Part shown: piece by piece, positions 1-62,317 of the stretch
Position numbering within the stretch: position 1 is the stretch's first letter
Layout: every line of letters begins with the position of its first letter
Source: Hymenobacter oligotrophus
Lineage (GTDB): Bacteria; Bacteroidota; Bacteroidia; Cytophagales; Hymenobacteraceae
Direction of reading: 5' to 3'
Assembly (NCBI RefSeq): GCF_003574965.1
Contig: NZ_CP032317.1
Span: 310,001-374,000, forward strand
DNA: 64,000 nucleotides
The notes under the pieces: generated by a model
What the model was told of the DNA's origin: nothing
Databases searched by the model: none
Seen by the model: the letters and a program-made list of their open reading frames with translations, nothing else
Program-made: the position numbers and the translations under genes

Positions 1-940
1 CGCCCACCGTGAAAATGCCGAACTCGGTGAAAATGTGTGGCTCGGGCACGCCTTCTTCGCGGCAAATGCGCTGAATGGTGCGTAGCACTTCCTCAATCAT
101 GTACGGGTAGTCGTACTCGGGTTGAATGGAGGTTTGGATGGGCAGGCCGCCGCCGATGTCGATGGTGTGCAGCGTGGGGCACACCTTGCGCAGCTCGCAG
201 TACTTGTGCACAAAGCGGCGCAGCTCCGACCAGTAGTAGGAGGTGTCCTTGATGCCCGTGTTGATGAAGTAGTGCAGCATCGTCAGCTCGAAGCGCGGGT
301 CGTTTTTGATCTGCTCTTCGTACAGCGGAATGGCATCGGCGTAGCGCACGCCCAGGCGCGAGGTGTAAAACTGGAAGCGCGGCTCCTCGTCGGAAGCCAA
401 ACGAATGCCCAGGTTGGCGCGGGTATCGGCGTGCACGTGCTCCTTGTAGTACTCGATTTCCGACAGGTTATCGAGAATGGGCATGCAGTTCACGAAGCCG
501 TCGTTCATGAACTCGGTGAGGTAGCGCTTGTACCGCTCGCGCTTAAAGCCGTTGGCGATGATGTACGTCTGCTTGTTGATGCGGCCCTTGCCGTAGAGCG
601 CGCGCACAATGTGCATGTCGTACCCCGAGGAGGTTTCGATGTGCACGTCGTTTTTCAGGGCTTCCTCCACCACAAAAGCAAAGTGCGAGGCCTTAGTGCA
701 GTAGCAGTAAGTGTAGCTGCCTTGGTAGTCGATTTTCTCGATGCCCTGCCGAAACCACTGCTTGGCGCGTTGAATGTTTTCGCTGATTTTGGGCAAGTAG
801 GTAAGGCGCAGCGGCGTACCGTGTTTCCGGATCAAATCCATCAGCGGAATGCCATGAAAGCGCAGCTCGTTGCCCTCGACGGTGAACTCCTGCGAAGGAA
901 AGTCGAAGGTTTGGCTAATCAGGTCGTGGTATGTATCCAT
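1..940 (-). CDS. speA: Arginine decarboxylase, fold-III PLP enzyme (3' end outside window)
   Basis: Catalyses arginine to agmatine plus CO2, the first step of one polyamine route. About 313 N-terminal residues are visible, starting MDTYHDLISQTFDF. Lys83 in CYCTKASHF fits the PLP lysine at the start of the fold-III barrel, and IDIGGGLPIQTS is the glycine-rich phosphate-binding segment; EFGIF follows where these enzymes usually carry an EPG-type motif. It is divergent from the arginase gene, so both arginine-consuming enzymes share one 292 bp intergenic region. The C-terminus lies beyond base 1. A diaminopimelate or ornithine decarboxylase relative cannot be fully excluded from this part alone. 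Confidence 0.8.
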   Translation of the reverse strand, partial: MDTYHDLISQTFDFPSQEFTVEGNELRFHGIPLMDLIRKHGTPLRLTYLPKISENIQRAKQWFRQGIEKIDYQGSYTYCYCTKASHFAFVVEEALKNDVHIETSSGYDMHIVRALYGKGRINKQTYIIANGFKRERYKRYLTEFMNDGFVNCMPILDNLSEIEYYKEHVHADTRANLGIRLASDEEPRFQFYTSRLGVRYADAIPLYEEQIKNDPRFELTMLHYFINTGIKDTSYYWSELRRFVHKYCELRKVCPTLHTIDIGGGLPIQTSIQPEYDYPYMIEEVLRTIQRICREEGVPEPHIFTEFGIFTVG

Positions 941-1232
941 TTTGGGAACTTGGGGTCAGGGGGGCCGGGGGCTTGGCGTGCCGGTGGTGTCCGAAGCATT
1001 TTTCAGGACACAACCGAGTTCCTAAGACCCCAAGAGCCTATTATCTTGCAGAGGCAAAGATACCCCAACGGGGGTGTTTTGGTTGTTGAATTGTTCGTTG
1101 GTCGCGGAGGAAGGTCCTCCGACACCAAGCCTAACCGGCGCCTACGGGTGTCAGCCCTTGTGTGTTAGCACCTTGGGGTTCCGGTAATCGGCAAGCAACA
1201 CTACCGCCCTAAACTTATTTAGCCGATGTAGT
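941..1232. other. Divergent intergenic region speA / arginase
   Basis: These 292 bp separate the divergent arginine decarboxylase and arginase starts and must hold both promoters. The stretch near 1040-1075 and the AT-richer bases just before 1233 are candidates, but I see no clean TTG/TAnnTTTG Bacteroidota promoter. No gene is evident here. Confidence 0.4.
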
Positions 1233-2210
1233 ATGCGACGAATTAAACTCATTGAAGTGCGCTCCGAACTGGGAGCTGGCACCCGCGGGGCAAGCCTGGG
1301 CATCGATGCCCTGAAAGTAGCCTGCCTAAACAAAGGGTCCGATTACTTCCGGCGGTTCAACGCCGTGGCCGTGCCGGACCAAAACCACGTGCTGTTCGAC
1401 AAAAACCACTTTCCCTACGCGAAGCACATCGACAGCATTTACACCGTGCTCAAAGGCATTGCCGGCACGGTAGAGCAAACCCTGCGCTTTGGGGAGTTCC
1501 CGCTGGTGCTGGCCGGCGACCACAGCAACGCCGCCGGTACCATTGCCGGCATCAAGGCCACGTACCCGCACAAAACCCTCGGGGTAGTATGGATCGACGC
1601 CCACGCCGACATCCATTCGCCCTACACCACGCCCTCGGGCAACGTGCACGGCATGCCGCTGGCCATGGCCCTAGGTGCCGACCACCGTGAGCTGCAGCAC
1701 AACAGCGTGGAGCCCGAAACGGAGTTCTTCTGGCGCAAAATCAAGAACCTAGGCGAAGAAGGCCCCAAGGTTACGCCCGACCACCTGGTGTACGTGGTAG
1801 TGCGCGACACCGAAATGGAAGAAGACGCCATCATTGCGCAGCACGGCATCAAAAACTTCAAGCTCGATGAGTTTCGCGCCAAAGGCCCCAGGCAGGTAGC
1901 CCGCGAGATTTACGAGCAACTGCGCTTCTGCGACCTGGTGTACATCTCGTTCGATGTCGATTCGCTTGACTCGCGCTTCAGCAAAGGCACCGGCACGCCC
2001 GTGGAGCTCGGCCTCGATGTGCCCGAAGCCAAAGCCTTGTGCCGCGCCCTGCTCGAAAACGACCGCGTGGTGTGCTTCGAGATGGTGGAAATCAACCCTA
2101 CGCTCGATTCCGAAAACACCATGGCCAGCAACGCTTTCGAAATTCTGGAAGCGGCTACCGAGGCCATTCAGGAGCGCCTGCGCCTCGACGACATGGTGAC
2201 CGGCCGCTGA
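1233..2210 (+). CDS. rocF: Arginase (ureohydrolase family)
   Basis: Hydrolyses arginine to ornithine and urea with a binuclear manganese centre. The 325 aa protein has every metal-ligand motif: GDHS (His97), DAHADIH (Asp122, His124, Asp126) and SFDVDSLD near residue 243. The segment SPSGN-like PSGNVHGMPLA after the second motif is the arginase form rather than the agmatinase form. Next to an arginine decarboxylase an agmatinase might have been expected, so specificity deserves testing. ATG start at 1233. Confidence 0.85.
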   Translation: MRRIKLIEVRSELGAGTRGASLGIDALKVACLNKGSDYFRRFNAVAVPDQNHVLFDKNHFPYAKHIDSIYTVLKGIAGTVEQTLRFGEFPLVLAGDHSNAAGTIAGIKATYPHKTLGVVWIDAHADIHSPYTTPSGNVHGMPLAMALGADHRELQHNSVEPETEFFWRKIKNLGEEGPKVTPDHLVYVVVRDTEMEEDAIIAQHGIKNFKLDEFRAKGPRQVAREIYEQLRFCDLVYISFDVDSLDSRFSKGTGTPVELGLDVPEAKALCRALLENDRVVCFEMVEINPTLDSENTMASNAFEILEAATEAIQERLRLDDMVTGR

Positions 2211-2299
2211 AGCCGGTAAAATTATTATTGGCAATGTGCCAGAAGCGGATACATTCGTGAAAATCAGTCGCGTTTGTATCCGCTTTTCTTGCCATTGCC

Positions 2300-2749
2300 A
2301 TGAATTCGTACGCGCTTCTGAGCGCCCTAGGTGCTGCCGCCTTGATGGGAGCTTGCACCGGCCCGTCGGCCACCACATCGGGCAGCCGTGGGCAAACCAA
2401 CACCGCCGTTGTGCGCGACTCCGTAACCGGCACCGTGGCTTACCGCGAGCGAATTGCCCTGCCGCTCAACGCGGTGCTGCGCGTGCAACTGCAGGATGTA
2501 AGCCGCCAAGATGCCCCGGCCATCGAAGTGGCATCGGCTTCCGTCGAGGCCCAAGGCAGGCAAGTGCCGCTGCCCTTCGTGCTTCGCTACGATACCATCC
2601 GCATCGACCCTACCAACACCTACGCCGTGCAAGCCCGCATTGAAGTGGATGGCCGGCTTATGTTCACCAACGATTCGGCTTACCCGGTTATCACGCGCGG
2701 CAACCCCAAACAGGTGCAGATGATGCTACGCCGCGCCTCGGGGCAGTAA
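2300..2749 (+). CDS. YbaY/YscW-like lipoprotein
   Basis: A 149 aa predicted lipoprotein. The signal peptide ends in a lipobox with Cys19 (ALMGAC). The rest is one small beta-rich domain with the pattern GTVAYRERIALPLNAVLRVQL, then IEVASASVE and a YAVQARIEVDG strand, which resembles the YbaY/YscW (META-neighbour) family. It probably sits in the periplasmic or outer-membrane leaflet. Function unknown. It starts 89 bp after arginase on the same strand, but a link to arginine metabolism is not shown. Confidence 0.7.
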   Translation: MNSYALLSALGAAALMGACTGPSATTSGSRGQTNTAVVRDSVTGTVAYRERIALPLNAVLRVQLQDVSRQDAPAIEVASASVEAQGRQVPLPFVLRYDTIRIDPTNTYAVQARIEVDGRLMFTNDSAYPVITRGNPKQVQMMLRRASGQ

Positions 2750-2755
2750 AAGCCT

Positions 2756-2855
2756 GTAGCGCGGGCTTCAGCCCGCGTGTACTAGAGCTTATTCGCTGAG
2801 GTAGCTATGCGCGGTACCAATCGTTCTAGCAAACGCGGGCTGAAGACCACGCTAC
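2756..2855. repeat. REP/MITE-like inverted repeat, family A copy 1
   Basis: A roughly 100 bp element bounded by 25 bp imperfect inverted repeats. The left end reads GTAGCGCGGGCTTCAGCCCG and the right end is its near complement ending in CGCTAC. Related elements lie at 42106-42294 and 61374-61472, and a fragment at 33368-33394. No transposase is present, so mobility would need an enzyme encoded elsewhere. Confidence 0.75.
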
Positions 2856-3281
2856 CCCGTACTGCGTCCCTAAGGTCAGAAAACAGAAGTTACTAGCCAG
2901 AGATGCAGACTGCAACCCGAGGTCGGCGTAGCCGCGTTCATGCTACTGTTGTGTAACGGTCAAATCAGCTGCAACCGAACGCCCAAGAAGCCAAAAATCG
3001 GTGCTGGCCGCAGAAACGAAGTTCGGCGTAGCCAATCGGTGTAAATCCGTGATTAGCTTTGCGCCCGTGAAACCGCTGCCTGTCTTCGTAGTGAACTTGC
3101 TGGTGCGGTCGTTTCGGAGCCGAAACGAGCGACGAATGTAGCGTAAGCCTTCTGCTTGCGCGGCCGCTCTGTGCGTCCGCCGCGAGGGTTTACGCCAGCG
3201 TCCGATTTTCAGCTCCTAAACCAACAGTATTTCAGCGCGCCGCCAATCGGTACCAGCGCGTCGACATAAAACCCGCACCCT
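2856..3281. other. Intergenic region upstream of argS with repeat debris
   Basis: About 426 bp without a convincing gene. It contains the phrases GGTCGGCGTAGCC and GTTCGGCGTAGCC, also found in the family A element near 42268, so part of the stretch is degraded repeat. TAGCTTTG at 3054-3061 matches the -7 consensus TAnnTTTG, but I see no upstream TTG element and it lies over 200 bp from argS. Confidence 0.4.
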
Positions 3282-5072
3282 GTGCAACAACTCGAACAAG
3301 ACCTCAAAGCTGCGCTGAGCGCGGCCATTCAGCAAGTATTTGGTGCTGCCGTGCCAGCCGAGCAGCTCACCATTCAGCCCACACGCAAAGACTTCGCGGG
3401 CACCTTCACGCTGGTTACGTTTCCGCTCACCAAAGCCCTTGGTAAGGGTCCCGAACAAATCGGGCAGGCCCTAGGCGAGTGGCTCCAAGCCAACGAAGCG
3501 CGCGTAAGCGGCTTCAACGTGGTGAAAGGCTTCCTGAACCTGGAAGTTGCCGATGCCGAGTGGCTGCGGCTGCTGCGCCAGCTGCGCGCCCAAGACATTG
3601 CCACGCCCGTGCAAACCGGCGGCCCCCAGCGTGTGGTGGTGGAGTACTCCTCGCCCAACACCAACAAGCCGCTGCACCTAGGCCACTTGCGCAACAACTT
3701 TTTGGGTTACTCGGTGGCCGAAATTCTGAAAGCCACTGGCGCCACCGTTACCAAGGCCAACCTGGTAAACGACCGTGGCATCCACATCTGTAAGTCGATG
3801 CTGGCGTACCAGCAGTACGGCCAGGGCGAAACCCCACAGAGCGCCGGCATTAAAGGCGACCACCTCATCGGCAAGTACTACGTGTTGTTCGAAAAGCACT
3901 ACCGCGAGCAGGTACGGCAGCTCGAGGCCGAAGGCGTATCGAATGAAGTAGCCAAGCGCGAAGCCCCGCTGATGCGGCACGCGCAGGAAATGCTGCTGCA
4001 GTGGGAAGCCGGCGACGAGGAGGTGGTAAGCCTGTGGCGCCAGATGAACGGCTGGGTGTATGAAGGATTCAACGACACGTACCAGCGCATCGGCGTCGAT
4101 TTCGACAAGTTCTACTACGAGTCGGAAACCTACTTGCTGGGCAAGGAACGGGTAGAAGAGGGCTTGGACAAGGGCGTGTTCTTCCGCAAGGACGACGGCT
4201 CGGTGTGGGTCGACCTCACCGACGAAGGCCTCGACCAGAAGCTGCTGCTCCGCGCCGATGGCACCTCGGTATACATGACGCAGGACCTAGGCACGGCCGA
4301 GCTGAAGTACCAGGACTACCAGTACGATTCGTCCGTCTACGTCATCGCCGACGAGCAGAACTACCACATGCAGGTGCTCAAGCTCGTGCTGAAAAAGCTG
4401 GGCAAGCCCTACGCCGATGCCATTTACCACCTAAGCTACGGCATGGTCGATCTGCCCTCGGGCAAGATGAAGTCGCGCGAAGGCACCGTGGTAGACGCCG
4501 ACGAGCTGGTGCAGGAAGTAACCGATGCCGCCAAGCAAACCACCGCCGAGCTAGGCAAAATTGAGGGCCTGAGCGAGCAGGAGGCCAACCAGCTATTCCA
4601 CACGCTAGGCCTAGGTGCGCTCAAGTACTACCTGCTGAAGGTAGACCCCAAGAAGCGCATGTTGTTCGACCCGAACGAGTCGGTGCAGTTGCAGGGCCAC
4701 ACGGGGCCATTTATTCAGTACACCCACGCCCGCATTTCGCAACTGCGCCGCAAGGCCGCCGAAATGGGCATCCGGCCCGAGCTGACGGAGGGCGTTGCCA
4801 CGCTGCACGAAACCGAGCGCGACGTGGTGCAGGCGTTGGCCAGCTACGCATCGGCCGTGGCCGAGGCGGCCCGTACGTACTCGCCGGCCGTTATCGCCCA
4901 GTACGCTTACGACCTCGCCAAAACCTACAACCGCTTTTACACCGAAGTGCCGGTGCTGCCCGAGCCCGACGCGGCCAAGCGCAGCCTGCGCGTAGCCCTT
5001 TCGGCGCAGGTGGCCGATACGCTGCGGCAAAGCCTGAAGCTGCTCGGCATTACGGCGCCCGAGCGCATGTAA
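3282..5072 (+). CDS. argS: Arginyl-tRNA synthetase
   Basis: Charges tRNA-Arg with arginine in the cytoplasm. The 596 aa length is usual for class I ArgRS. HLGH (residues 132-135) follows SSPNTNKPL, and the KMSKS-equivalent is KMKSREG near residue 396. The N-terminal additional domain (about 1-100) and C-terminal anticodon-binding domain (YDLAKTYNRFYTEVPV, ending ITAPERM) are both present. The start is GTG; no upstream ATG fits. A strong hairpin terminator follows, so it looks monocistronic. Confidence 0.95.
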   Translation: MQQLEQDLKAALSAAIQQVFGAAVPAEQLTIQPTRKDFAGTFTLVTFPLTKALGKGPEQIGQALGEWLQANEARVSGFNVVKGFLNLEVADAEWLRLLRQLRAQDIATPVQTGGPQRVVVEYSSPNTNKPLHLGHLRNNFLGYSVAEILKATGATVTKANLVNDRGIHICKSMLAYQQYGQGETPQSAGIKGDHLIGKYYVLFEKHYREQVRQLEAEGVSNEVAKREAPLMRHAQEMLLQWEAGDEEVVSLWRQMNGWVYEGFNDTYQRIGVDFDKFYYESETYLLGKERVEEGLDKGVFFRKDDGSVWVDLTDEGLDQKLLLRADGTSVYMTQDLGTAELKYQDYQYDSSVYVIADEQNYHMQVLKLVLKKLGKPYADAIYHLSYGMVDLPSGKMKSREGTVVDADELVQEVTDAAKQTTAELGKIEGLSEQEANQLFHTLGLGALKYYLLKVDPKKRMLFDPNESVQLQGHTGPFIQYTHARISQLRRKAAEMGIRPELTEGVATLHETERDVVQALASYASAVAEAARTYSPAVIAQYAYDLAKTYNRFYTEVPVLPEPDAAKRSLRVALSAQVADTLRQSLKLLGITAPERM

Positions 5073-5081
5073 ACCCTTCTC

Positions 5082-5113
5082 CAGAACGCGCTTCGGCGCG
5101 TTCTGCTTTTTTT
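5082..5113 (+). terminator. Rho-independent terminator of argS
   Basis: Ten-base-pair perfect stem (CAGAACGCGC / GCGCGTTCTG) around a stable TTCG tetraloop, followed directly by CTTTTTTT. It begins 9 bases after the argS stop. Confidence 0.9.
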
Positions 5114-5163
5114 GCCAATTTCTTTGAACGCCGCTGCCTAAGCGCGTTCCTCCAAGCTTCCGA

Positions 5164-5745
5164 ATGAAATCAATTGCAGTTTATTGCGGCTCCAGCGCCG
5201 GCACCGATGTGCGCTACCGCGAGCACGCCACCCAAGTGGGCCAAACGTTTGCCCAGCGCGGCATTACGCTGGTATACGGCGGCGGCAACGTGGGCCTGAT
5301 GGGCGCCGTGGCCGATGCCACCATGGCAAACGGCGGTCAGGCCATCGGCATCATCCCCGGCTTCTTGGCCGATAAAGAAGTGGCGCACCTAGGGCTGACG
5401 CAGCTCGAAGTCGTAGATAACATGCACCAGCGCAAGCTGCGCATGGTCGAGCTGGCCGAGGGCTTTATTGCCATGCCCGGCGGATTCGGTACCTTGGAAG
5501 AGTTGTTTGAGGTGCTTACCTGGGGCCAGCTGGGCCTGCACCGCAAGCCCATTGGCCTGCTGAACGTGGCCGGCTTCTACGATGCGCTTATTCACCTGCT
5601 CGAACACATGGTGCTGCAAGGCTTGCTACGCTCCGAAAACCGCCGCCAGCTGCTTGTGGCCGACAACGTGGACGAGCTGCTGGCCCAAATGAACGCCTGG
5701 CAGCCCAGCAACGTGGAAAAGTGGCTAACGCCGAGCCGCACGTAG
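5164..5745 (+). CDS. LOG-family nucleotide phosphoribohydrolase (TIGR00730)
   Basis: The 193 aa protein has the Rossmann-like lysine-decarboxylase-like fold of LOG proteins, which release cytokinin-type bases from nucleoside 5'-monophosphates. The signature PGGFGTLEE is at residues 105-113, with upstream MHQRK (87-91) and YGGGNVGLMG (38-47). The older label of lysine decarboxylase should not be used. In bacteria outside plant associations the substrate is probably a general purine nucleotide. It stands alone between two terminators or spacers. Confidence 0.88.
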   Translation: MKSIAVYCGSSAGTDVRYREHATQVGQTFAQRGITLVYGGGNVGLMGAVADATMANGGQAIGIIPGFLADKEVAHLGLTQLEVVDNMHQRKLRMVELAEGFIAMPGGFGTLEELFEVLTWGQLGLHRKPIGLLNVAGFYDALIHLLEHMVLQGLLRSENRRQLLVADNVDELLAQMNAWQPSNVEKWLTPSRT

Positions 5746-5824
5746 GAACTGCTACAAACAACGGTACCCCAATGGGGTTAGTGCTTCGAATTCATTTCTG
5801 CTGTCTACACCACCACCGTCTGCC

Positions 5825-6421
5825 ATGAAATCCTTAGTTATTTACTCCCTGGCCGCCGCCCTCGCTGCCTGCGGCGCCCGCTCAGCTTCAACCACCGACC
5901 AGCCCACCACCGCCATGGCCGAAACGCCCGCAACCGCTGCCGCCCGCGGCACCGTGTACGATTTCACCGTTACCGACATCAACGGCAAGCCCGTGCAGCT
6001 CAGCCAGTACAAAGGCAAAAAGCTGCTCATCGTGAATACGGCTTCGGAATGCGGCTACACCCCGCAGTACAAGGAGCTGGAAGAGCTCTACAAAAAACAC
6101 AGCGACCGGGTAACTGTGCTGGGTTTCCCGGCCAACAACTTCGGCGGGCAGGAGCCGGGCTCCAACGAGCAGATTGCCGCCTTCTGCGAGAAAAACTACG
6201 GCGTAACGTTCCCGCTCTTCGGCAAAGTATCGGTGAAGGGCGACGACACCGCGCCGCTCTACCAGTTCCTGAGCGACAAATCGAAGAACGGCTACACCGA
6301 CGAAAAGCCCACCTGGAACTTCTGCAAGTACCTCATCAACGAGCAGGGGCAGGTAGTGGGCTTCTATCCTTCCAAAGTAAAGCCGATGAGCGAGGAGCTG
6401 GTATCGGCCATCCTGAAGTAA
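5825..6421 (+). CDS. Glutathione peroxidase family lipoprotein
   Basis: A 198 aa thiol peroxidase of the GPx family, carried on a lipoprotein signal peptide with lipobox Cys16 (LAAC). The peroxidatic Cys76 lies in NTASECGYTPQY, followed by GFPANNFGGQEPG with the conserved Gln, and WNFCKYL holds the Trp/Asn of the active site. Being a Cys enzyme it probably uses thioredoxin-like donors. The lipobox suggests it protects the envelope from peroxides. Thr/Ala-rich linker residues 20-42 separate the anchor from the domain. Confidence 0.9.
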   Translation: MKSLVIYSLAAALAACGARSASTTDQPTTAMAETPATAAARGTVYDFTVTDINGKPVQLSQYKGKKLLIVNTASECGYTPQYKELEELYKKHSDRVTVLGFPANNFGGQEPGSNEQIAAFCEKNYGVTFPLFGKVSVKGDDTAPLYQFLSDKSKNGYTDEKPTWNFCKYLINEQGQVVGFYPSKVKPMSEELVSAILK

Positions 6422-6435
6422 ACCGCCTGACGAAG

Positions 6436-6477
6436 CGTTGCCCTAGGTCGTAAACGTATTTACTACCTAGGGCAACG
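6436..6477. terminator. Hairpin with a CCTAGG in each arm
   Basis: Arms CGTTGCCCTAGGT and ACCTAGGGCAACG pair exactly over 13 bp, and inner GTAAA/TTTAC extend the stem after one mismatch, around a CGTA loop. It begins 15 bases after the peroxidase stop. There is no T-tract on either side, so it may act as an mRNA-end structure rather than an intrinsic terminator. Confidence 0.65.
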
Positions 6478-6541
6478 ACTGGTAAACCAGGTTACCAACG
6501 TTGTAAGCGCTTGTGCAGCAGGCGCTAAACCGCGCCAAGTT

Positions 6542-7477
6542 TTGACAACCTCTTCTGATATCACCCCGCGAAACCCAAGCCTCATCGGGGCTTGGGTTTC
6601 GGCTTTCCGGCCGCGCACCTTGCCGTTGGCCCTGGCCAGTATTCTGATGGGTGGCTTTCTGGCCGCCAGCCGCCACGAGTTTAACGGGGCGGTGATTGGG
6701 CTTGCTGCGCTTACCACGGTGCTGCTGCAAGTGCTCAGCAACCTCGCCAACGACTACGGCGACTCGCAAAACGGCGCCGACAGCGTGCACCGCGAGGGGC
6801 CGCAGCGCGCCGTGCAAAGCGGCGCTATTTCGCCGGCAGCCATGAAGCAGGGCATGTACGTGTTCGGGGCGTTGTCGCTGGCCTCGGGCTTGTGGCTGCT
6901 GTGGGTGGCCCTAGGTGCCTCGGGGCTGTGGCTGTTCGTGGGCTTCCTGCTGCTGGGGTTGGGCGCCATTTGGGCGGCCATCAACTACACGGCCGGCGCG
7001 CGGCCCTACGGCTACGCGGGCTTGGGTGATGTGTCGGTGTTTTTGTTTTTCGGGCTGGTGGGCGTGTGCGGCAGCTACTTTCTGCAAACCCGCGAGCTGC
7101 CCTACGAGGTGCTGCTGCCGGCCGTCAGTCTGGGCTGCTTTTCCACGGCGGTGCTGAACGTAAACAACATCCGCGATATGCGCTCCGATGAGCTGGCCGG
7201 CAAAATTACCATTCCGGTGCGCCTAGGTGCCCGCCGGGCCCGCGTGTACCACGGGCTGCTGCTGCTCGTGGGCCTAGGTGCCGCGGCGGCCTATGTGCTG
7301 CAGCACCACCGCTCGCCGTGGCAGTGGTTGTTTGTGGGCGCGGTACCGCTGCTGGTGTTCAACGGCGTGCAGGTATGGCAGCGGCAGCAACCTGCGCAGC
7401 TCGACCCGTTGCTGAAGCAAATGGCCATGAGTACCTTGCTGTTCGTGTTGCTGTTTGGCATTGGGCAGCTGCTTTAG
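6542..7477 (+). CDS. menA: 1,4-dihydroxy-2-naphthoate polyprenyltransferase
   Basis: Attaches the polyprenyl chain to dihydroxynaphthoate in menaquinone synthesis, in the inner membrane. The 311 aa protein has about nine hydrophobic helices and the two UbiA motifs: NLANDYGDSQNGAD (Asp71, Asp74, Asp80) and NIRDMRSDELAGK near residue 205. ARPYGYAGLGDVSVFLFFG is typical of MenA. The start used is TTG at 6542; the next ATG (6646) would remove the first helix. No other men genes are nearby. Confidence 0.9.
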   Translation: MTTSSDITPRNPSLIGAWVSAFRPRTLPLALASILMGGFLAASRHEFNGAVIGLAALTTVLLQVLSNLANDYGDSQNGADSVHREGPQRAVQSGAISPAAMKQGMYVFGALSLASGLWLLWVALGASGLWLFVGFLLLGLGAIWAAINYTAGARPYGYAGLGDVSVFLFFGLVGVCGSYFLQTRELPYEVLLPAVSLGCFSTAVLNVNNIRDMRSDELAGKITIPVRLGARRARVYHGLLLLVGLGAAAAYVLQHHRSPWQWLFVGAVPLLVFNGVQVWQRQQPAQLDPLLKQMAMSTLLFVLLFGIGQLL

Positions 7478-55379: not shown

Positions 55380-55705
55380 GCAAACACAACCGTAGGGCAA
55401 AATGAGGCATTTTGTGTTACCTCTGGGTCACGGCGCTGTTAAGCCTGTGTTATCAAGCGCCCTGCAGCCCTTGGCCAAGGCTGCCGCTCGCCGATGCCGC
55501 AAGGGCAACACGCGGCCGCCGTTGCAAGGTTTTGCCGTGGCAACGCGGCAGGTGGTTATAGTTATGATAATCAGTATGTTGAACTTGTTGAAGGCTTGTG
55601 GCTTTTGTGGGGGCTGGCGCAAAAAAATTGTCCGAGCTGTTACCTCAACGTAAAATCTGCGTAGAGATATGACACAACCGATAACGAAATTAACTTTTCA
55701 TACTT
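55380..55705. other. Divergent intergenic region porin / Ser-rich protein
   Basis: These 326 bp must carry two promoters. The AT-richer stretch 55555-55590 and the bases just before 55706 (TAACTTTTCATACTT) are candidates. No gene, repeat or RNA is supported. Confidence 0.35.
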
Positions 55706-56278
55706 ATGGCAACTTCCAACGACCACAACCGCCACGAAGCACGTCACCTCGAATTTGAGCCCAACCGCCAAGGCCGCAGCAGCCAAGGCACCGAAGATAA
55801 CTCGTCGTCGCAGTCGTCGTCGAGCAGCTACTACGGCAGCAAGCACGGCGTGCAGTCGTCGGGCCAAAGCAGCAACCAGCGCGAGCAATCGTCGGGCAAC
55901 AATTGGCTTTCGCGCGGCAACAACCGCACGTGGGTAGGCGCCTCGCTGGGCGTATTAGCCGCCGGTGCCTTTGTGGCCCTCACCCGCGACAAATGGTCGT
56001 CGTGGGGCAGCAGCCTCAGCGACCTGGCCGACAAATCGGGCCTGACGGGCAGCCGCGCAAGCCAGGGCCAGCAGGAGCAAGGCGGCAGCAGCCAGCGCCG
56101 CGGCGCACAGGCTAGCTCGGCTAGCGCCAAAAGCAGCTCGTCGAAATCGGCTTCGGCCCAAAAAAGCGGCAGCCAAGCCGATGCCTCGCTGAACCGCGAA
56201 GCCGCCAGCGGCATCAAGTCGAGCCCCTCGTCGAGCAAATCCTTCACCGACGAAGGCGCCACCGGCAACAACGACTAA
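55706..56278 (+). CDS. Ser-rich membrane-associated stress-type protein
   Basis: A 190 aa low-complexity protein, about one third Ser. N-terminal SSSQSSSSSYYGSKHG is followed by one hydrophobic segment (WVGASLGVLAAGAFVALT, 76-93) and another Ser/Ala/Lys-rich tail. TCG serine runs recur in the DNA. Similar proteins often lie beside GSP/YsnF stress genes, as here. Probably disordered on both sides of the helix. Function unknown. Confidence 0.7.
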   Translation: MATSNDHNRHEARHLEFEPNRQGRSSQGTEDNSSSQSSSSSYYGSKHGVQSSGQSSNQREQSSGNNWLSRGNNRTWVGASLGVLAAGAFVALTRDKWSSWGSSLSDLADKSGLTGSRASQGQQEQGGSSQRRGAQASSASAKSSSSKSASAQKSGSQADASLNREAASGIKSSPSSSKSFTDEGATGNND

Positions 56279-56359
56279 CAACCTACCCTGGCCGGGCCTG
56301 TAATAGCCCGGGCACCTAGGGCTTTGCGCCGCTTTCAGGAGCAGCGCAAATAAATGACC

Positions 56360-56408
56360 AAACGCGCTGCGGCACCGGTTTTCCCGGTACTGCAGCGCGT
56401 TTGTTTTG
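56360..56408 (+). terminator. Terminator after the Ser-rich gene
   Basis: CAAACGCGCTGC pairs with GCAGCGCGTTTG with an inner ACCGG/CCGGT stem, followed by TTTTG. It also faces the convergent gene at 56445. Confidence 0.75.
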
Positions 56409-56444
56409 GGACGTTGGCCTCTGGCGGCTGGCACTGATAACGGA

Positions 56445-57134
56445 TTAGGGCGCCGGCTGTGTGCCAAGTGGTTTGCTGATGCGGAAACCCAGGCCGAGTA
56501 AAGCGTGCGCAGCAAGGTTCGTAACGTTGGCGTGGCCATCGGCAATGGGTACCCGCACGTACGCCGCCGTTGCTCGCACCTCGGCTTGCACAAACCACCT
56601 AGGGCCAATGGCTTGGCGCTTGGCTACACCCGCCTCCACCACCGGGCCCGATAAAAAGTAGCCCGTGCCCAGCAGCCCGCCGCGCTCGGCAAAAGCCCTG
56701 CCGCGCACCGTCGACTCGGGATGGGTGATGACGGCCCCTGCGCCCGCAGCCCATGTAAGGCCGCGCCGCTGCCACTGGCGCGTAAGCGTGAGCAGGTTGA
56801 AACCATCGGTGATAGAAAAGCGCTGCACTTCAAGCGGACGGTTGCGCAAGATGATTTTGTGGTGGGTGAGGCGCAGCGCCCAGCCCTGCCTACCGCGCCA
56901 GGTAGCCAGGCGCGCATCGTAATACACCGGTGGCCTGAGCGGCTTGGTGCGGTAACGGGCCTGAAACTTAAGCGGAGCGGCCCCGTGCTGTTGAATGCGC
57001 AACGGCGAGGGCACGTTGAAGGCAGCACCACCCGACACGGTGGCCTCCCAACTGCGTTGCTGAGCCAGCCCTAGATGCGACACAGCAGTGGCGGCCAATA
57101 GCAGGCCCGGTCAGCGGTAACGTGCGCGGTTCAT
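56445..57134 (-). pseudogene. Outer-membrane-type gene with an in-frame TGA in its signal peptide
   Basis: Read from ATG 57134 the frame gives MNRARYR, a TGA at 57113-57111, then PGLLLAATAVSHLGLAQ and about 205 residues of beta-rich sequence (GGAAFNVPSPLRIQ, WALRLTHHKIIL, TWAAGAGAVIT, ALLGLGFRISKP). Skipping the stop restores a perfect signal peptide. Alternatives are re-start at TTG 57098 (217 aa, TTGGCCGCC), which would leave half a signal sequence, or a sequencing error. The mature part looks intact, so any decay is recent. Confidence 0.6.
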
Positions 57135-57283
57135 AAATATCTGTCCTCTTGGTGCTTGGGTGGCAAGAGGTGTTGCGGCTTACACCCGGTGCCATTGGGC
57201 TAAACGCATACCAAGCAAGGCAGTTAAAGCCGAGCCAGCCCTAGGTGCTTCCTAGCGCAACTCTCCGGGGCAGCTAACAAAAA

Positions 57284-57314
57284 GAAGCGGCAACCGGAAA
57301 CCGGCTGCCGCTTC
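57284..57314 (-). terminator. Terminator of the GSP17M-YsnF gene
   Basis: GAAGCGGCA/TGCCGCTTC with an inner CCGG/CCGG stem around AAA. On the minus strand it continues CTTCTTTTTGTT, a good T-tract. Confidence 0.85.
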
Positions 57315-57350
57315 GGGGTAAGCTAAAAGCAATGGACTACTAGCTATATG

Positions 57351-58250
57351 CTAGAGGCCGGTGCCGCGGTTCGTGTCGTCCTCGTCGGAAGACATACGGC
57401 GCTGGCGCATGGGGTCGTCGGAGTTCAGGCGCTCCACATCTACGTCGGTGCGGCGCACCGTGTCGCGGATGGTTTCGTCGCGTTCTTCTACTTCTTTGCC
57501 CAAACGAACTTCTTCCACCACGCGGGCTTCCTTGTTCACTACGGGCACCTCGGCGCGCTCCGTAATTTCCATTTCGCCCTCTTTAAAGTTTTGAATATCG
57601 GCTTCGGTAGCGGGGCGATTCACGGGGTTGCGCTCAACCCAGGCGTGCTCCTGGCGCAAGCGCAGGTGCTCCTCTACGGGGCGTTCCACTATGCGGCTGC
57701 GCAGGCGCATGCCGCCGGTTTCTACTTCGCGCTTGCCCACTTGCAGGTTCTCCTCGATAATCGGAATCGATTGATCTGTCATGTCGGTGCCGCGGCCTAC
57801 CATGTCGCGGCTGGTCATGCTATTGGCAGTGGTGTTGGTGCCGGCTGTCATGTTCTGCTGCCCCATATTCTGGGCACCCATGCCTGTCCAGCCGCTGCGG
57901 TACTGCTGGGCGCGCTCGTCCACGTCAACGGCGCCGCAGCGGTCGAGCACCTCGGCGGCGCGCTGGGCTTCGGTTTGGTCGGAGGCGTGCACGGTTACCA
58001 TAGCGCCGCGGCGGGCTACTTCGGAGTACTTCGAAATTTCGTCGTCGCTATTAAACAGCGAGCGGAAAAAGCCGCTGATGCTGTCGTCGTTGGTGCTGCT
58101 AGCGGTAGTGCTGGTGCTGCTTGTGGCGCCCGTGGTGTTCTGGGCCGAAATATCTATGTGGTCGCGCGTTACACCCATGCTTTCGAGTTGTTGCGCGGCT
58201 TGTCGGGCTTGGTTGGCATCGTCGAACATGCCAATTACGGTTTGTGCCAT
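57351..58250 (-). CDS. GSP17M-like domain fused to YsnF/AvaK (DUF2382) domain
   Basis: A 299 aa stress protein from ATG 58250. Residues 1-110 are the GSP17M/YflT-like fold (MAQTVIGMFDDANQARQAAQ, RRGAMVTVHASDQTEAQRAAEVL). A Met/Asn/Thr-rich linker follows. Residues 150-290 are a DUF2382 domain (SIPIIEENLQVGKREVETGG, then EEHLRLRQEHAWVERNPVNR and ITERAEVPVVNKEARVVEEV). DUF2382 also occurs alone in the next gene upstream. Probably induced by desiccation or general stress. Confidence 0.85.
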   Translation of the reverse strand: MAQTVIGMFDDANQARQAAQQLESMGVTRDHIDISAQNTTGATSSTSTTASSTNDDSISGFFRSLFNSDDEISKYSEVARRGAMVTVHASDQTEAQRAAEVLDRCGAVDVDERAQQYRSGWTGMGAQNMGQQNMTAGTNTTANSMTSRDMVGRGTDMTDQSIPIIEENLQVGKREVETGGMRLRSRIVERPVEEHLRLRQEHAWVERNPVNRPATEADIQNFKEGEMEITERAEVPVVNKEARVVEEVRLGKEVEERDETIRDTVRRTDVDVERLNSDDPMRQRRMSSDEDDTNRGTGL

Positions 58251-58299
58251 GGTACTGGAATTAGGGCTATTGGTTGGGTTGGGAAAAAACGGACTAGGC

Positions 58300-58749
58300 T
58301 TAGCCCGCGGGTTGGGTAGGATCATTCGTCACCCGCTCCACAATAATCTCTTCTTTGCGGAGCGTAACAGGTTGCGTAGTATCGGCTTGCACTTGGCGTT
58401 TGGTAATGCGTACTTCCTCCACAAACAGGATGCGCTTTTCCACTACCAACACCTCGCGCAGCACCGGCATAATGGTGGTGTCGCCCTCGTAGCGCACGGC
58501 GGGCGGGGCCACATCCACGTACTGGTTTACGGGCACCCGCTCCACCTCAATCTCTTCGCGCACGGTGGGTGCCGTTACTTCCTGGTGTTCCTCGTGTACT
58601 TGCTTGGTCACCCGGATGCGGCCGGTTTCTATCACGCCGCGCTGTACCTGCAGCTGCTCCTCAATCACCGGAATTACCAGCGGCTGCTCCGGCTGCACAA
58701 GGGGCTGGTTCGAGGCGTTCGGCTGGGTCGGATCTTGGGGCGGTTGCAT
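58300..58749 (-). CDS. YsnF/AvaK (DUF2382) domain stress protein
   Basis: A 149 aa protein from ATG 58749. It is one DUF2382 domain: PLVIPVIEEQLQVQRGVIET, REEIEVERVPVNQYVDVAPP, LREVLVVEKRILFVEEVRIT and LRKEEIIVERV are the alternating Glu/Val strands typical of YsnF. The next gene starts 49 bases downstream on the same strand, so they form an operon. Role beyond stress is unknown. Confidence 0.85.
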   Translation of the reverse strand: MQPPQDPTQPNASNQPLVQPEQPLVIPVIEEQLQVQRGVIETGRIRVTKQVHEEHQEVTAPTVREEIEVERVPVNQYVDVAPPAVRYEGDTTIMPVLREVLVVEKRILFVEEVRITKRQVQADTTQPVTLRKEEIIVERVTNDPTQPAG

Positions 58750-59143
58750 GGGCACGTGGGGTTTGGGCCGGCCGGCGCCGGAATCGGTTAAAGCCAACTT
58801 CGAGGATTGTAGGATGGGCTTACGCGGCCCAACAGCTATGGTTATTGTTCAGCTAGCCTCAACAAGTACAATAAACGGTTGAGCTTAAAGGCGCCTCGGC
58901 GGCACAAGCCCGACGGTAACCAAGCACCGCAATGCCATGCTCGGTAAGGCTCTTATTTGTTTGTAAATGATTGATTAATAAACAATTGATGGTGTGTTGA
59001 AATGCCGCACGCCCTAGGTGCGCGGCGCCGGACGGGCGTGGGGGGCTACGGTTCATCCTGCTTATGCCACACTTCGGTAGCAACAAGTGGCAAGGGGGCA
59101 GGCCGGGCAGCCACTTTTGAGGCGTCACTCAGCTGCTACCCCC
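58750..59143. promoter_or_regulatory. AT-rich divergent control region of TonB receptor / stress operon
   Basis: About 394 bp without a gene. Bases 58950-58990 are strongly AT-rich against a GC-rich background and hold an imperfect inverted repeat (TTGTTTGTAAAT / ATTAATAAACAA, 58958-58985) that could be an operator or promoter core. A CCTAGG lies at 59015. Binding protein unknown. Confidence 0.4.
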
Positions 59144-61366
59144 ATGAAACGCCTGCCCTTCTTCGTACTGCTGCTCCTGCTGGCCGCCCTAGGTCGGGCG
59201 CGGGCCCAAACCGCTACCACCCTCGGCGGCACCGTGCGCGATGCGCAGGGCCAGCCGCTGCCCGGCGCCAACGTGTTCCTGAAAACCACCTTCGATGGGG
59301 CCACGGCCGATTCGCTGGGCCGGTTCAGCTTCAGCACCCGCCAAACCGGCACGCTGCCGTTGGTAATTACCCTGATGGGCTACGAAGTGCAGGAGCAACC
59401 CGTGGTGCTCGATGGCGCGGCCAAACGTTTTGTCGTGGTGCTGAAGCCCGTGCGCAACCAGCTCGGCGACGTGACCATCACGGCCGGGGCGTTCGAAGCC
59501 AGCGACGAGAAACGCAGCACCGTGCTTACCACCCGCGACGTGCAAACCACCGCCGGCGCCCTGGCCGACATCAACGGCGCGCTGAACACCTTGCCCGGCA
59601 CCAGCAGGGTAGGCGAGGAGGGCAAGCTGTTTGTGCGCGGCGGCGCAGCCGGCGAAACCAAGCAGTACCTCGATGGCCTGCCGCTGCAAAGCCCCTACAA
59701 CGCCAGCGTGGCCGGCGTGCCGGCGCGGGGCCGCTTTTCGCCCAACCTGTTTAAGGGCACCGTGTTCAGCACGGGCGGCTACTCGGCCGAGTTTGGGCAG
59801 GCGCTGTCGGCGGTGGTGGGGCTGAAATCGTACGACCTGGCCGACGAGACCCAAACGGGCGTGTCGCTGCTGTCGGTGGGCCTTAGCTTGTCGCACCAGC
59901 AACGCTTCGAGCGCAGTTCGGTAGCCGCTACCCTCGACTACACCAACCTGCAACCCTACTACGGCATGGTGCCGCAGGAGTGGGGCTGGCTGAAAGCGCC
60001 GCAGGCCCTGGGTGGCTCGGTGGCCCTGCGCCAGCGCACCGGCGAAATGGGCATGCTGAAAGTGTACGGCGCCTTTACGCGCTCGGAGTTTGCCCTGCGC
60101 CAGCCCGACCCCGACTTTGTCGGCGGGCGCCCCATCGGCCTCGAAAACCAAAACCAGTACCTCAATGCCACGTTCCGGAGCCCGCTGCGCCGCGGCTGGA
60201 GCCTGCAAACCGGCGTAGCCGGCACCCGCGACGAGCAAACCGTGCGCCCCGACGTGCAGTACCTCCACGACCTAGAGCAATCGGTAGTGGGCCGCGTGGT
60301 GCTCACCAACGATTCGGCCGGTACCTATTTTAACCTTAAGCTCGGCGCCGAGAGCCTAGGTCAGCGGTACCAGCAGCAGTACCAGGCATCGGCCGAAGCG
60401 CCGCTGCAGCGCCTCGGATTCGATGAAGCGCGGGTGGCGGCCTTTGCCGAGTCGGACATTGCCTTCAGCAACAACTTCGTAGCCCGGGCCGGCGCTCGTA
60501 CGGAGTACTCGAAGGTGCTGGGCCGCTGGAATGCCGCGCCGCGCTTGGCCTTGGCTTACCAGCTAAGCGAAGGCGAGCAGCTGTCGGGGGCGTGGGGCTA
60601 TTTCTACCAAACGCCCGCCAACGACCTTATGCGCATTGGGCAGTACGCCGATAACCTGCGCTTCGAGCGGGCAGTGCATTATTTGCTCACGTATCAGCGC
60701 ATCAAAAACAACCGCACCCTCCGCACCGAGGCGTACTACAAAGACTACGCCCACCTCACGCGCTACGAGGGCGCGGCCCTTGCCACCAACGTGCCGCTGC
60801 CTTTTGTGCCCGCCGCGTACCAAAGCACCGGCCGGGGCTACGCCCGCGGGGTAGATGTATTCTGGCGCGACCGGAAAACCGTGCGGGGGCTTGATTATTG
60901 GGTTAGCTACGGCCTGGTGGATACCCGCCGCCAGCAGCGCGCCGATCCGCAAATGGCTGTGCCCACCTTCGCCTCGCGGCACAACCTCTCGGTGGTCGGC
61001 AAATACTGGATCAACAAGCTGCACACGCAGGTAGGCGCCACCTTCAGCTACGCCTCGCCTAGGGCCTACTACAACCCCAACTTACCCGGCTACAACCAAG
61101 CCCGCACGCCCAGCTACCAGGATGTGAGCGTGAACCTGAGTTACGTTACCTCGCTCTGGAAAAACCTGACCATTGTGCACCTCTCGTGCTCCAATGTGCT
61201 GGGCCGCGACAACGTGTTCGGCTACCGCTACGCCAACACACCCGATGCCACGGGCACTTACCAAGGCGTGGCCGTTACGCCTTCGGCGCCGCGCATGTTC
61301 TTCGCCGGCCTGCTGATTTCCATCAACAAGAAACGCCCCGCCGATACCAACGCGGCACCGGAGTAG
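59144..61366 (+). CDS. TonB-dependent receptor with carboxypeptidase-regulatory-like N-terminus
   Basis: A 740 aa outer-membrane receptor from ATG 59144 with signal peptide MKRLPFFVLLLLLAALGRARA. Residues 25-105 are a CarboxypepD_reg-like domain (TLGGTVRDAQGQPLPGANVFL), then a plug (INGALNTLPGTSRVGEEGKLFVRGG, YLDGLPLQSPYN) and a beta barrel. It stands without a SusD partner, so it is a siderophore/metal/vitamin-type receptor rather than a SusC glycan importer. The barrel ends LISINKKRPADTNAAPE, without the usual terminal aromatic residue. Substrate not identifiable. Confidence 0.92.
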   Translation: MKRLPFFVLLLLLAALGRARAQTATTLGGTVRDAQGQPLPGANVFLKTTFDGATADSLGRFSFSTRQTGTLPLVITLMGYEVQEQPVVLDGAAKRFVVVLKPVRNQLGDVTITAGAFEASDEKRSTVLTTRDVQTTAGALADINGALNTLPGTSRVGEEGKLFVRGGAAGETKQYLDGLPLQSPYNASVAGVPARGRFSPNLFKGTVFSTGGYSAEFGQALSAVVGLKSYDLADETQTGVSLLSVGLSLSHQQRFERSSVAATLDYTNLQPYYGMVPQEWGWLKAPQALGGSVALRQRTGEMGMLKVYGAFTRSEFALRQPDPDFVGGRPIGLENQNQYLNATFRSPLRRGWSLQTGVAGTRDEQTVRPDVQYLHDLEQSVVGRVVLTNDSAGTYFNLKLGAESLGQRYQQQYQASAEAPLQRLGFDEARVAAFAESDIAFSNNFVARAGARTEYSKVLGRWNAAPRLALAYQLSEGEQLSGAWGYFYQTPANDLMRIGQYADNLRFERAVHYLLTYQRIKNNRTLRTEAYYKDYAHLTRYEGAALATNVPLPFVPAAYQSTGRGYARGVDVFWRDRKTVRGLDYWVSYGLVDTRRQQRADPQMAVPTFASRHNLSVVGKYWINKLHTQVGATFSYASPRAYYNPNLPGYNQARTPSYQDVSVNLSYVTSLWKNLTIVHLSCSNVLGRDNVFGYRYANTPDATGTYQGVAVTPSAPRMFFAGLLISINKKRPADTNAAPE

Positions 61367-61373
61367 CCGAGTG

Positions 61374-61472
61374 TTGCGCGGGCTTGAGCCCGCGTTTGCC
61401 GGAACGAAATCGTCAGGGCGGAACAGTGTGGTTCCGGTCATTCGCGCAAACGCGGACTAAAGTCCGCGCTAC
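61374..61472. repeat. REP/MITE-like inverted repeat, family A copy 3
   Basis: Left end TTGCGCGGGCTTGAGCCCGC and right end GCGGACTAAAGTCCGCGCTA with inner GGAAC/GTTCC pair, roughly 99 bp. It lies 8 bases after the TonB receptor stop. Confidence 0.75.
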
Positions 61473-61621
61473 ATCGCGCGTCTGCTTTCGTCTTTCCTGG
61501 GCTGCAGTTCAGCCGGCTGATCCGACACTTCAGCAACACAAAATTTCAGGCGGCCCTAGGTCGCCACACCTTTGAATCATCAGACAGGCACTACGCCACT
61601 CACCAAATCAACGCCCCTGCC

Positions 61622-62317
61622 ATGAAAACCTCGCTGCTTATCCTCGCCCTCGCTGCCGCTTCGCTTAATGCTTCGGCCCAGCAGAAAGCTACCCCGGCGG
61701 CTGCCACCCAAACTGCCCCCGCCGGATACTCTGAGATGCTGGCCGCCACCGTGCGCGAGCTGATGAGCACCGGCGACCCGGCCCAGCTGAAGCAGACCTA
61801 CGCCAAGCTGGAGCGCGCCGCCGCCGTAGCACCCGCCGATTGGCTGCCGCGCTACTACCAGGCCTACGCCATGATGCTGACCACTTTCGTGAGCAAGGAA
61901 GAGGGCGACGTGAAAGACAAGTACCTCGACCAAGCCGAAGCCGCCTTGGCCAAAGCCCGCAAGCTGCGCGGCGACGAATCGGAGCTGCTGGTGCTGCAGG
62001 CCTACATCTACCAGGCGCGCCTGGGTATCTCGCCCATGATGCGCTCCATGAAGTACTCGCAGATGGTTGCCGAAACCTTGGCGCAGGCCAAAAAGCTGAA
62101 CCCCGCCAACCCGCGCGCCTACTTGGTAGAAGCCAACAACGTATACTACACGCCCAAGATGTTTGGCGGCGGTGCCGAGGCCGCCAAGCCGCTTTTCGAG
62201 GAGGCCAAAACCCGTTACGGTGCCTTCAAGCCTGCTTCGGATGTGGCCCCCAACTGGGGCGAGCGGCAAGTGCTGGGCCGCCTGAAGCAGTACGAGCAGA
62301 CCACGGCCGCTAAGTAG
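61622..62317 (+). CDS. Secreted TPR-like helical protein
   Basis: A 231 aa exported protein with signal peptide MKTSLLILALAAASLNASAQ. The mature part is all helical with tetratricopeptide-like pairs (LERAAAVAPADWLPRYYQAYAMM, AEAALAKARKLRGDESELLVLQAYIYQ, AETLAQAKKLNPANPRAYLVEAN). Proteins of this type often precede LytS kinases in Bacteroidota. The kinase gene lies 130 bp downstream, so a common role is possible. Confidence 0.8.
   Translation: MKTSLLILALAAASLNASAQQKATPAAATQTAPAGYSEMLAATVRELMSTGDPAQLKQTYAKLERAAAVAPADWLPRYYQAYAMMLTTFVSKEEGDVKDKYLDQAEAALAKARKLRGDESELLVLQAYIYQARLGISPMMRSMKYSQMVAETLAQAKKLNPANPRAYLVEANNVYYTPKMFGGGAEAAKPLFEEAKTRYGAFKPASDVAPNWGERQVLGRLKQYEQTTAAK

Follow-up and report, generated by a model that had tools for sequence, protein, structure and literature searches.

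Features of the window

The window, i.e. the whole 64-kb stretch of Hymenobacter DNA that was analysed, contains 92 copies of CCTAGG, which is its top over-represented hexamer. A second-order Markov model predicts 10.3 copies, and models of order 1 and 3 predict 12.3 and 18.8; the order-4 expectation of 71.5 is high because the 5-mers on which it is built are themselves pieces of the motif. The original prediction had estimated about 90 strongly over-represented sites and a scarcity of other CTAG contexts. Both statements hold, as do its coordinates, since 92 of the 144 CTAG tetramers of the window lie within CCTAGG. The hairpin pair, the trio and the two stop-codon sites that it described are likewise present, the pair being located at 6442/6466. 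The features are:

1669..61561, no strand: array of 92 CCTAGG, 83 of them in the form BCCTAGGT on either strand (site counts)
6436..6477, plus strand: head-to-head motif pair (6442/6466) with a long stem; the ORF upstream of it ends at 6421
14818..14823, no strand: CCTAGG supplying the TAG stop of ORF 14148..14822
29519..30207, minus strand: three motif sites (29519, 29822, 30200) in a DcuC-family transporter gene
34534..34541, plus strand: rare motif site in the Pro-Arg frame, the gene being on the minus strand
47590..47595, no strand: CCTAGG supplying the TAG stop of ORF 46539..47594
49437..49477, plus strand: second head-to-head motif pair, capable of forming a hairpin
49495..49500, no strand: third CCTAGG of a trio (49438, 49471, 49495)

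The RNA of the pair at 6436..6477 folds with -30.4 kcal/mol (z -6.4), and none of 200 shuffled sequences was as low; for the hairpin at 49437..49477, z was -3.1, with one of 200 shuffles as low. The CCTAGG at 49495 is not a full motif because it is flanked by G on both sides. At the three motif positions of the DcuC-family gene, motif-free relatives use other codons.

The enriched unit and its abundance in the genome

Exactly one outward T is found at 83 of the 92 sites, which therefore read BCCTAGGT on one strand and ACCTAGGV on the other. In this genome, CCCTAGGT was seen 296 times against 13 expected, while the symmetric octamers ACCTAGGT (12 seen, 9.4 expected) and CCCTAGGG (5 seen, 4.6 expected) are close to expectation. 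The unit enriched in this genome is therefore the asymmetric octamer BCCTAGGT and not the palindrome CCTAGG, which we rejected as the unit; the enrichment of CCTAGG originally proposed stands, with its unit corrected to an asymmetric one. A mobile repeat was also rejected, as the flanks beyond about three bases are almost free of information.

The enrichment is genome-wide. The genome (4.19 Mb) contains 5,678 CCTAGG compared with 67 GGATCC, far above the second-order expectation, so that neither of the two outcomes named in advance as contrary (counts at the Markov expectation, or enrichment vanishing outside the window) was observed. SCCTAGGT totals 4,682 copies, 2,332 on one strand and 2,350 on the other, and GCCCTAGGTGC is present in 329 + 310 copies, its reversed control in none. 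The density of CCTAGGT is 141 per 100 kb, as against 0.4 in motif-free members of the genus. Among the 18 one-mismatch neighbours, nine are raised at least 1.5-fold, eight stay at about the same level, and CCCAGGT, the precursor, falls to half.

CCTAGG is spaced more evenly than random (0 of 1,000 random placements were as even). SCCTAGGT alone shows the effect weakly (1.8% of placements as even), as does G058 (5.1%), and the same comparison did not reveal it in G079. Counts of the two motif orientations stay close to 1:1 in each of 15 sampled stretches, with 22 to 10 as the greatest imbalance. A head-to-head arrangement accounts for 24 of 46 close pairs, and three of these 24 have a nearby T or A tract, as would be expected of terminators.

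Position relative to genes and mobile DNA

Motif density is 2.55/kb outside and 0.99/kb inside called genes. In 344 kb of sequence with home-made gene calls, 265 of the 282 coding SCCTAGGT were in the CTA-GG (Leu-Gly) frame and 17 in the Pro-Arg frame, and none placed TAG as an internal codon. The use of all reading phases, suggested originally, is thus true of single examples and fails as a rule. A preference for the CTA codon was rejected as the cause: among Leu codons before Gly, CTA accounts for only 20/368 after codons with a last base other than C, compared with 181/297 after NSC; the figures after NAC and NTC are 115/152 and 19/31. The Leu-Gly pairs are in part created by the motif.

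On the three plasmids of the same genome (82.7 kb), no SCCTAGGT was found, while about 94 would be expected at the genome rate. Similarly, the full motif is absent from a 12-kb type I restriction-modification island, where about 16 copies were expected, and two 20-kb pieces of small contigs of G004 contain one SCCTAGGT and none, respectively. The original view that bias or selection acts on the DNA is supported by the excess outside genes, the absence from plasmids and the partly motif-made Leu-Gly pairs.

Related motifs in Hymenobacter

BCCTAGGT is one, lineage-specific, of at least five dialects with a CTAG core in Hymenobacter. It is shared by three species (dialect A: G000, the genome of the window, G004 and G025), and other clades use CCCTAGGG, ACCTAGST, AGTGGCCTAG and GGCTAGCC. 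On a tree of a single gene (ComEC) from 29 chosen genomes, each dialect is one clade, with seven changes, the minimum possible being seven. The word is asymmetric in dialects A and D. In three groups (G058, the G079 group and the G049/G031 group; dialects B, C and E) the top word is palindromic (CCCTAGGG, ACCTAGGT, GGCTAGCC). The abundance in spacers decreases from convergent to tandem to divergent in dialect A; dialects B and D do not follow this order, and in dialect E spacers carry no excess.

In the family sample, 19 of 204 genomes contain more than 3,000 SCCTAGS, although counts of the G058 type are inflated because a CCTAGG with S at both ends is counted on both strands. Within the eight genomes of the own genus, the motif is missing in five. 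Such a patchy distribution requires several losses or gains.

Origin and conservation of the sites

Judged from motif-free relatives, the motif sites arose through many types of substitution. Of 39 gained sites, 34 required at least two changes; transversions made up 56 of the 111 changes, and C>T and G>A were the commonest (50/111). Of the motif sites, 38/74 are identical in G025 and 38/69 in G004, above the controls (10-38% for four sets of octamers, about 40% for random octamers).

Genes for DNA uptake and DNA methylation

ComEC is present in all 30 genomes searched, and it does not discriminate, because motif-free relatives and outgroups possess it as well. The type IV pilus/T2SS ATPase (PF00437) was above cut-off in none of the 26 genomes of the own genus (g1) and of g5, G049 giving a sub-cut-off match; across 38 genomes, only the outgroup G007 exceeded the cut-off. 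A Neisseria-type pilus machine for uptake sequences is therefore excluded, and the type IV pilus or T2SS route was rejected.

No gene for a reader of the motif was found. In Riemerella the locus tags of the receptor genes and comEC lie near each other, but the ORF lists around comEC in G000 and G004 (first 45 residues of each product) contained nothing pointing to Riemerella-type genes. The same was true of the nine frames scanned beside the TonB-plug/CarboxypepD_reg protein encoded at 59087-61363 of the window (one histidine kinase, one DUF2382 and seven with nothing above cut-offs).

PF00145 and PF01555 were searched in 20 genomes, seven of them with dialects, and found in two and three of these seven, respectively; PF02086 and PF02384 were searched in 25 genomes, 14 with dialects, and PF02086 was found in none of the 14. 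G000 lacks PF00145, PF01555 and PF02086, and its sole PF02384 is HsdM, from a type I operon within a stretch that lacks the motif. G025, which has the same motif, lacks PF00145, PF02086 and PF02384, and its sole PF01555 adjoins a SmaI-family nuclease. G000 and G025 thus share none of the four families, and a methyltransferase of these families was rejected as the driver.

Discussion

We tentatively favour the view that the motif is a tag of self-DNA identity, working like a DNA uptake sequence by a pilus-independent route; this seems plausible, if somewhat short of probable. A putative cell-surface or DNA-processing reader would favour DNA bearing the tag, so that tagged DNA from kin would enter and recombine more frequently. 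Molecular drive would then build up the tag at all places where the sequence permits it, i.e. in spacers and, within genes, at Leu-Gly codons. Drift in the specificity of the reader would then produce new dialects. Uptake would proceed without type IV pili, perhaps through an outer-membrane route of the Bacteroidota type as in Riemerella, followed by ComEC. The wider proposal is possible but rather doubtful: that Hymenobacter has an undescribed, sequence-specific system of self-DNA recognition and uptake independent of type IV pili, whose surface receptor, drifting in specificity around a CTAG core, rewrote the chromosomes lineage by lineage, each with its own dialect, in spacers and at some protein positions. 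Of the causes listed in the original prediction, the uptake-like one is thus preferred, while methylation, segregation and a single repair bias are disfavoured.

The motif could instead be the binding site of a chromosomal protein (nucleoid, replication, repair or a Chi-like hotspot) whose thousands of copies are maintained by weak selection. Even spacing of CCTAGG, conservation within the clade above controls and absence from plasmids all agree with this, and no uptake machine, of which the pilus part is absent, is required. Nevertheless, several shifts of specificity at thousands of sites would be demanded within one genus group, the motif is dispensable to five of the eight genomes of the own genus, and its strands are near balance, unlike Chi and segregation motifs, which are usually strand-biased; we therefore regard such a site as unlikely. 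The same balance speaks against a polar segregation or recombination signal of the KOPS type. While an asymmetric octamer spread over the chromosome would suit it, the genome-wide strand counts and the 15 near-balanced stretches led us to reject strand polarity, leaving such a signal barely conceivable.

Two further explanations would have the motif written by mutation or repair. In one, which is HIP-like, an orphan methyltransferase marks the motif and biased mismatch repair creates and keeps the sites; scale, palindromic core and lineage variants resemble those of HIP1 and its alternates (PMC4390886), and the palindromic top words of three groups are more HIP-like than DUS-like. It is, however, improbable, given that G000 and G025 share no methyltransferase of the four families and that symmetric octamers are not enriched in the own genome. 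In the other, a functionless mutational or Vsr-like repair bias is responsible. The predominance of C>T and G>A fits, but the multiple changes at most gained sites and the many transversions disfavour any single bias, and conservation exceeds the controls; plasmids and an island of the same cell also lack the motif, although recent arrival would have the same effect. This explanation appears very improbable.

Returning to the self-DNA tag, a search of the open-access PMC literature found neither such a motif in Hymenobacter nor an established uptake sequence in Bacteroidota, and a tag of this kind appears to be unreported for the phylum. If the reading is correct, a series of dialects in Bacteroidota lacking the pilus machine would allow the spread of such words, shifts in their specificity and the genetic isolation of lineages to be tested a second time, independently. 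The contrast between sister species that have the motif and those that lack it would serve as a natural experiment in molecular drive, and a gene whose presence and sequence track the dialects would be a route to a putative outer-membrane DNA receptor of the phylum.

Comparison with known systems

Uptake in Pasteurellaceae and Neisseriaceae uses type IV pili, and the machine that reads uptake sequences has a pilin receptor. Uptake sequences (USS and DUS) are known from these two families (PMC1939737), and PMC3630211, PMC1939737 and PMC7371117 describe their dialects and core, inverted pairs and even spacing, their build-up where sequence is unconstrained and their depletion from mobile DNA. 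The Hymenobacter motif resembles them in that its short words number in the thousands, run in either orientation at about 1/kb and have a shared short core with clade-specific flanks. Its dialects track phylogeny (on the 29-genome single-gene tree); it is denser where sequence is unconstrained and scarce in mobile DNA, forms inverted pairs and is evenly spaced; it shows no replichore polarity, and in dialects A and D the word is non-palindromic. It differs in belonging to Bacteroidota, in its CTAG core, length of 8-10 bases and restriction to part of the genus, in the lack of the pilus ATPase, and in the palindromic top words of dialects B, C and E.

With cyanobacterial HIP1 and alternate HIPs, the motif shares a genome-wide short word in thousands of copies, a palindromic core and lineage variants. 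Unlike HIP1, the variants have a common core, only the asymmetric octamer is enriched in the own genome, and none of the four methyltransferase families occurs in both G000 and G025. Transformation in Riemerella anatipestifer and R. columbina is similar in phylum and in involving ComEC. Mutagenesis identified eight genes essential for transformation in Riemerella, with no annotated pilus gene among them (PMC8459023). Riemerella transformation genes encode a DUF5689 protein with an outer-membrane partner that has a carboxypeptidase regulatory domain, a helix-hairpin-helix protein, a DUF1343 protein, ComF and DprA. A preference for self-DNA has been reported, and k-mers have been proposed as candidate uptake words in Riemerella and Flavobacterium (PMC7965970); the candidates of that study are A/T-rich runs (PMC7965970, Table 3), unlike the CTAG-centred words of Hymenobacter.

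Abundance and asymmetry of the motif

The over-representation of CCTAGG, for which about 90 sites in 64 kb had been claimed in the original prediction, was borne out: the window contains 92 sites, against 10.3 expected under a second-order Markov model, by which CCTAGG is the top-scoring hexamer, and 18.8 under a third-order model (the fourth-order expectation is 71.5, that model drawing on words which are already parts of the motif). Other contexts of CTAG are indeed fewer, with CCTAGG accounting for 92 of the 144 CTAG; CTAG overall is not in excess (139 expected). The enrichment is real and extends beyond the window to the whole genome, where 5,678 CCTAGG were counted in 4.19 Mb, compared with 67 for the reversed control GGATCC; GCCCTAGGTGC is present in 639 copies and its reversal in none. 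GGATCC itself occurs in 0 or 1 copies per 5.5-6 Mb in five other Hymenobacter genomes (G111, G071, G093, G101 and G109) and in 100-200 copies in many other genomes of their genus; this near-absence is a strong site avoidance.

The enriched unit is asymmetric. Exactly one outward T is present at 83 of the 92 window sites, which read BCCTAGGT on one strand and ACCTAGGV on the other, and the flanks A..T and C..G occur at 0 and 2 sites, respectively. In 364 kb of the own chromosome (third-order expectation), CCCTAGGT was seen 296 times (13.1 expected), GCCTAGGT 161 times (24.2) and TCCTAGGT 33 times (9.0), while the palindromes ACCTAGGT (12 vs 9.4), CCCTAGGG (5 vs 4.6) and GCCTAGGC (12 vs 15.7) were not enriched. 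The codons used for Leu-Gly follow the same rule: CTA-GGT encodes 158 of 297 pairs after an NSC codon and 18 of 31 after NTC; after NAC, CTA-GGC or CTA-GGG is found in 107 of 152 and CTA-GGT in only 4. Where the codon before the pair is of any other kind, CTA occurs in 20 of 368.

Dialects in related genomes

SCCTAGS was counted in 204 genomes of the family, with strands summed and sites with S on both sides counting twice. It exceeded 3,000 in 19 genomes, 3 of the own genus and 16 of a second genus (g5); the maximum was 1,154 in the other four genera of the family and, among 311 genomes from elsewhere in the order (390 counted in all), 3,007. Sampled at 14.5-364 kb apiece, 15 of the 19 showed a clade-specific word round CTAG, and G130, G183 and G195 no clear one.

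Words round CTAG and the genomes carrying them
BCCTAGGT (dialect A): own genome, G004, G025
CCCTAGGG/SCCTAGGG: G058
mixture of ACCTAGGG and CCCTAGGG: G158, G171
ACCTAGST: G079, G127, G185
TGGCCTAG, extended to AGTGGCCTAG: G132, G196, G190
GGCTAGCC: G049, G031, probably G036

The TGGCCTAG word was also found in contigs of H. fodinae and H. wooponensis, both of which may be among the genomes already counted. Every dialect with at least two members formed one clade on a ComEC tree built from 29 selected genomes, of which 14 have a dialect, 11 are motif-poor and 4 are outgroups; the dialect labels need 7 changes, which is the minimum, and the motif-poor state 5. In 20 kb of G052 (L182), the top octamers were CCTACCCC and CCCTACCC (19 and 14 copies, against roughly 1.6 expected for either), and CCCTACCC was seen 12 times in G113 (L250; 0.9 expected), possibly a dialect lacking the CTAG core.

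Origin of the sites

The motif is present in three of eight genomes of the own genus (4,558-4,831 SCCTAGGT) and the other five are motif-free (25-67). CCTAGGT amounts to 141 per 100 kb in 344 kb of the own chromosome vs 0.4 in 240 kb of the motif-free five; between these sets, which differ in GC, 9 of the 18 one-mismatch neighbours that do not overlap the motif were raised at least 1.5-fold, 8 were about equal and CCCAGGT was halved. The top octamers of the motif-free genus mates (the same 240 kb, L116-L127) were GTGCGCGA (66 seen, 9 expected) and GTCGCGCA (68, 11), the latter being raised on the own plasmids too (19 vs 3.1).

For 82 aligned window sites, the motif was found in none of 142 comparisons with motif-free genomes. 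In the two relatives that bear the motif, the octamer is unchanged at 38 of 74 and 38 of 69 sites; conservation is 10-38% for control octamers (four small sets, with 18-30 sites in each) and about 40% for random ones. At the 39 sites with a motif-free state, at least two changes in the 7-base core are needed at 34 and at least three at 25, and transitions make up 55 of the 111 changes at gained sites. At 28 of 40 coding sites, the codons spanning the motif encode other amino acids than in the motif-free orthologue, on a baseline at which half of the codon triplets are non-identical in any case (4,971 of 9,966 identical). A sharper comparison is that of Leu-Gly pairs: those encoded by the motif are Leu-Gly in motif-free relatives in 15 of 38 cases, other Leu-Gly pairs in 46 of 70 (Fisher p = 0.014); within the clade, the former are kept in 48 of 52 and 52 of 54, the latter in 107 of 124 and 100 of 115. 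The word has thus been written, in part, over protein positions.

Distribution in the genome

Motif density is 0.99/kb inside and 2.55/kb outside genes (home-made calls covering 82%). Spacers of dialect A hold 3.49 (convergent), 2.37 (tandem) and 1.50 (divergent) per kb (664 kb). The three classes are alike in dialect B, the densest are convergent in C and tandem in D, and E has no spacer excess. Close pairs (< 60 bases) of dialect A are head-to-head in 24 of 46 cases (p = 0.0001 against one quarter), but a T or A tract accompanies just 3 of these 24; the four pairs selected for folding all form stems (z below -5 in three, -3.1 in the fourth). CCTAGG is spaced more evenly than at random (CV 0.858, null 0.985, sd 0.042; 0 of 1,000 placements), and random placements were as even in 1.8% for SCCTAGGT alone and 5.1% for G058; even spacing was not seen in G079.

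In each of fourteen 20-kb chromosome stretches there were 23-38 CCTAGG, split about evenly between the strands (22 to 10 at most). The three own plasmids (82.7 of 84.9 kb sampled) carry 3 CCTAGG and no SCCTAGGT. The 12 kb round the genome's only PF02384 methyltransferase (HsdM), encoding a type I HsdMSR operon, have 2 CCTAGG and no full motif. Such stretches could serve to map foreign DNA.

Motif-free stretches
G000:C1:2985500-2997499 (L254, own genome): type I restriction-modification genes
L013:9155-13342: longest gap (4.2 kb) of the main chromosome sample, GC reduced to 0.571, possibly a further acquired segment

L254 also encodes a DUF3987 protein and an ADP-ribosylglycohydrolase/phosphatase-like protein. 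Window positions 36611-36939 and 42096-42416 belong to a dispersed repeat family, with matches (identity about 67-100%) scattered over many sites in G004, G025 and further genus mates.

Methylation and uptake genes

Among four methyltransferase families (PF00145, PF01555, PF02086, PF02384), the first three had no match in G000; PF00145, PF02086 and PF02384 had none in G025, whose PF01555 protein adjoins a SmaI-family nuclease. None of 14 dialect genomes had a PF02086 match. The ATPase family shared by type IV pili and type II secretion, PF00437, exceeded the cut-off in none of 26 genomes of the own genus and g5, 14 of them dialect-bearing, and ComEC was present in 30 of 30 genomes, motif-bearing or motif-free alike.

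A transposon screen in Riemerella (Bacteroidota) found transformation to need ComEC, DprA, ComF and RecA, plus four proteins said not to resemble known uptake proteins, one predicted to be an outer-membrane protein with a carboxypeptidase-regulatory domain and another its operon partner (PMC8459023). A second report states that R. columbina prefers its own DNA, with restriction-modification named as one possible cause and no clear uptake word found; it also records genes resembling PilB and PilT in Flavobacterium johnsoniae, so that pilus genes are not foreign to Bacteroidota (PMC7965970). Hymenobacter would be served by a pilus-free route.

Comparison with known systems

A segregation signal was rejected, the SCCTAGGT orientations being balanced genome-wide (2,332 vs 2,350). 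The several word switches within one genus are hard to explain by a cellular function that depends on thousands of sites simultaneously, and are best accounted for if biased DNA acquisition drives the accumulation of the motif. In the tests applied here, the motif of the own genome did not behave like HIP, the highly iterated palindrome of cyanobacteria; the top words of three dialect groups (B, C and E) are palindromic and in this HIP-like.

We hold it possible, a little short of evenly balanced, that the motif works like an uptake sequence of the DUS kind. In contrast to DUS/USS systems, Hymenobacter lacks the classical type IV pilus machine by the PF00437 search, and membership of the DUS family is not claimed. 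No earlier report of a DUS-like dialect series in Bacteroidota was found in the literature searched, and BCCTAGGT and its kin would represent a new one. Uptake sequences are described as having dialects that share a core, inverted pairs and even spacing, as building up in unconstrained sequence and as depleted in mobile DNA (PMC3630211, PMC1939737, PMC7371117), all of which has its counterpart in Hymenobacter, with the even spacing seen for CCTAGG of the own genome; both likewise favour one orientation in reading frames (331 to 212 here; PMC2346458).
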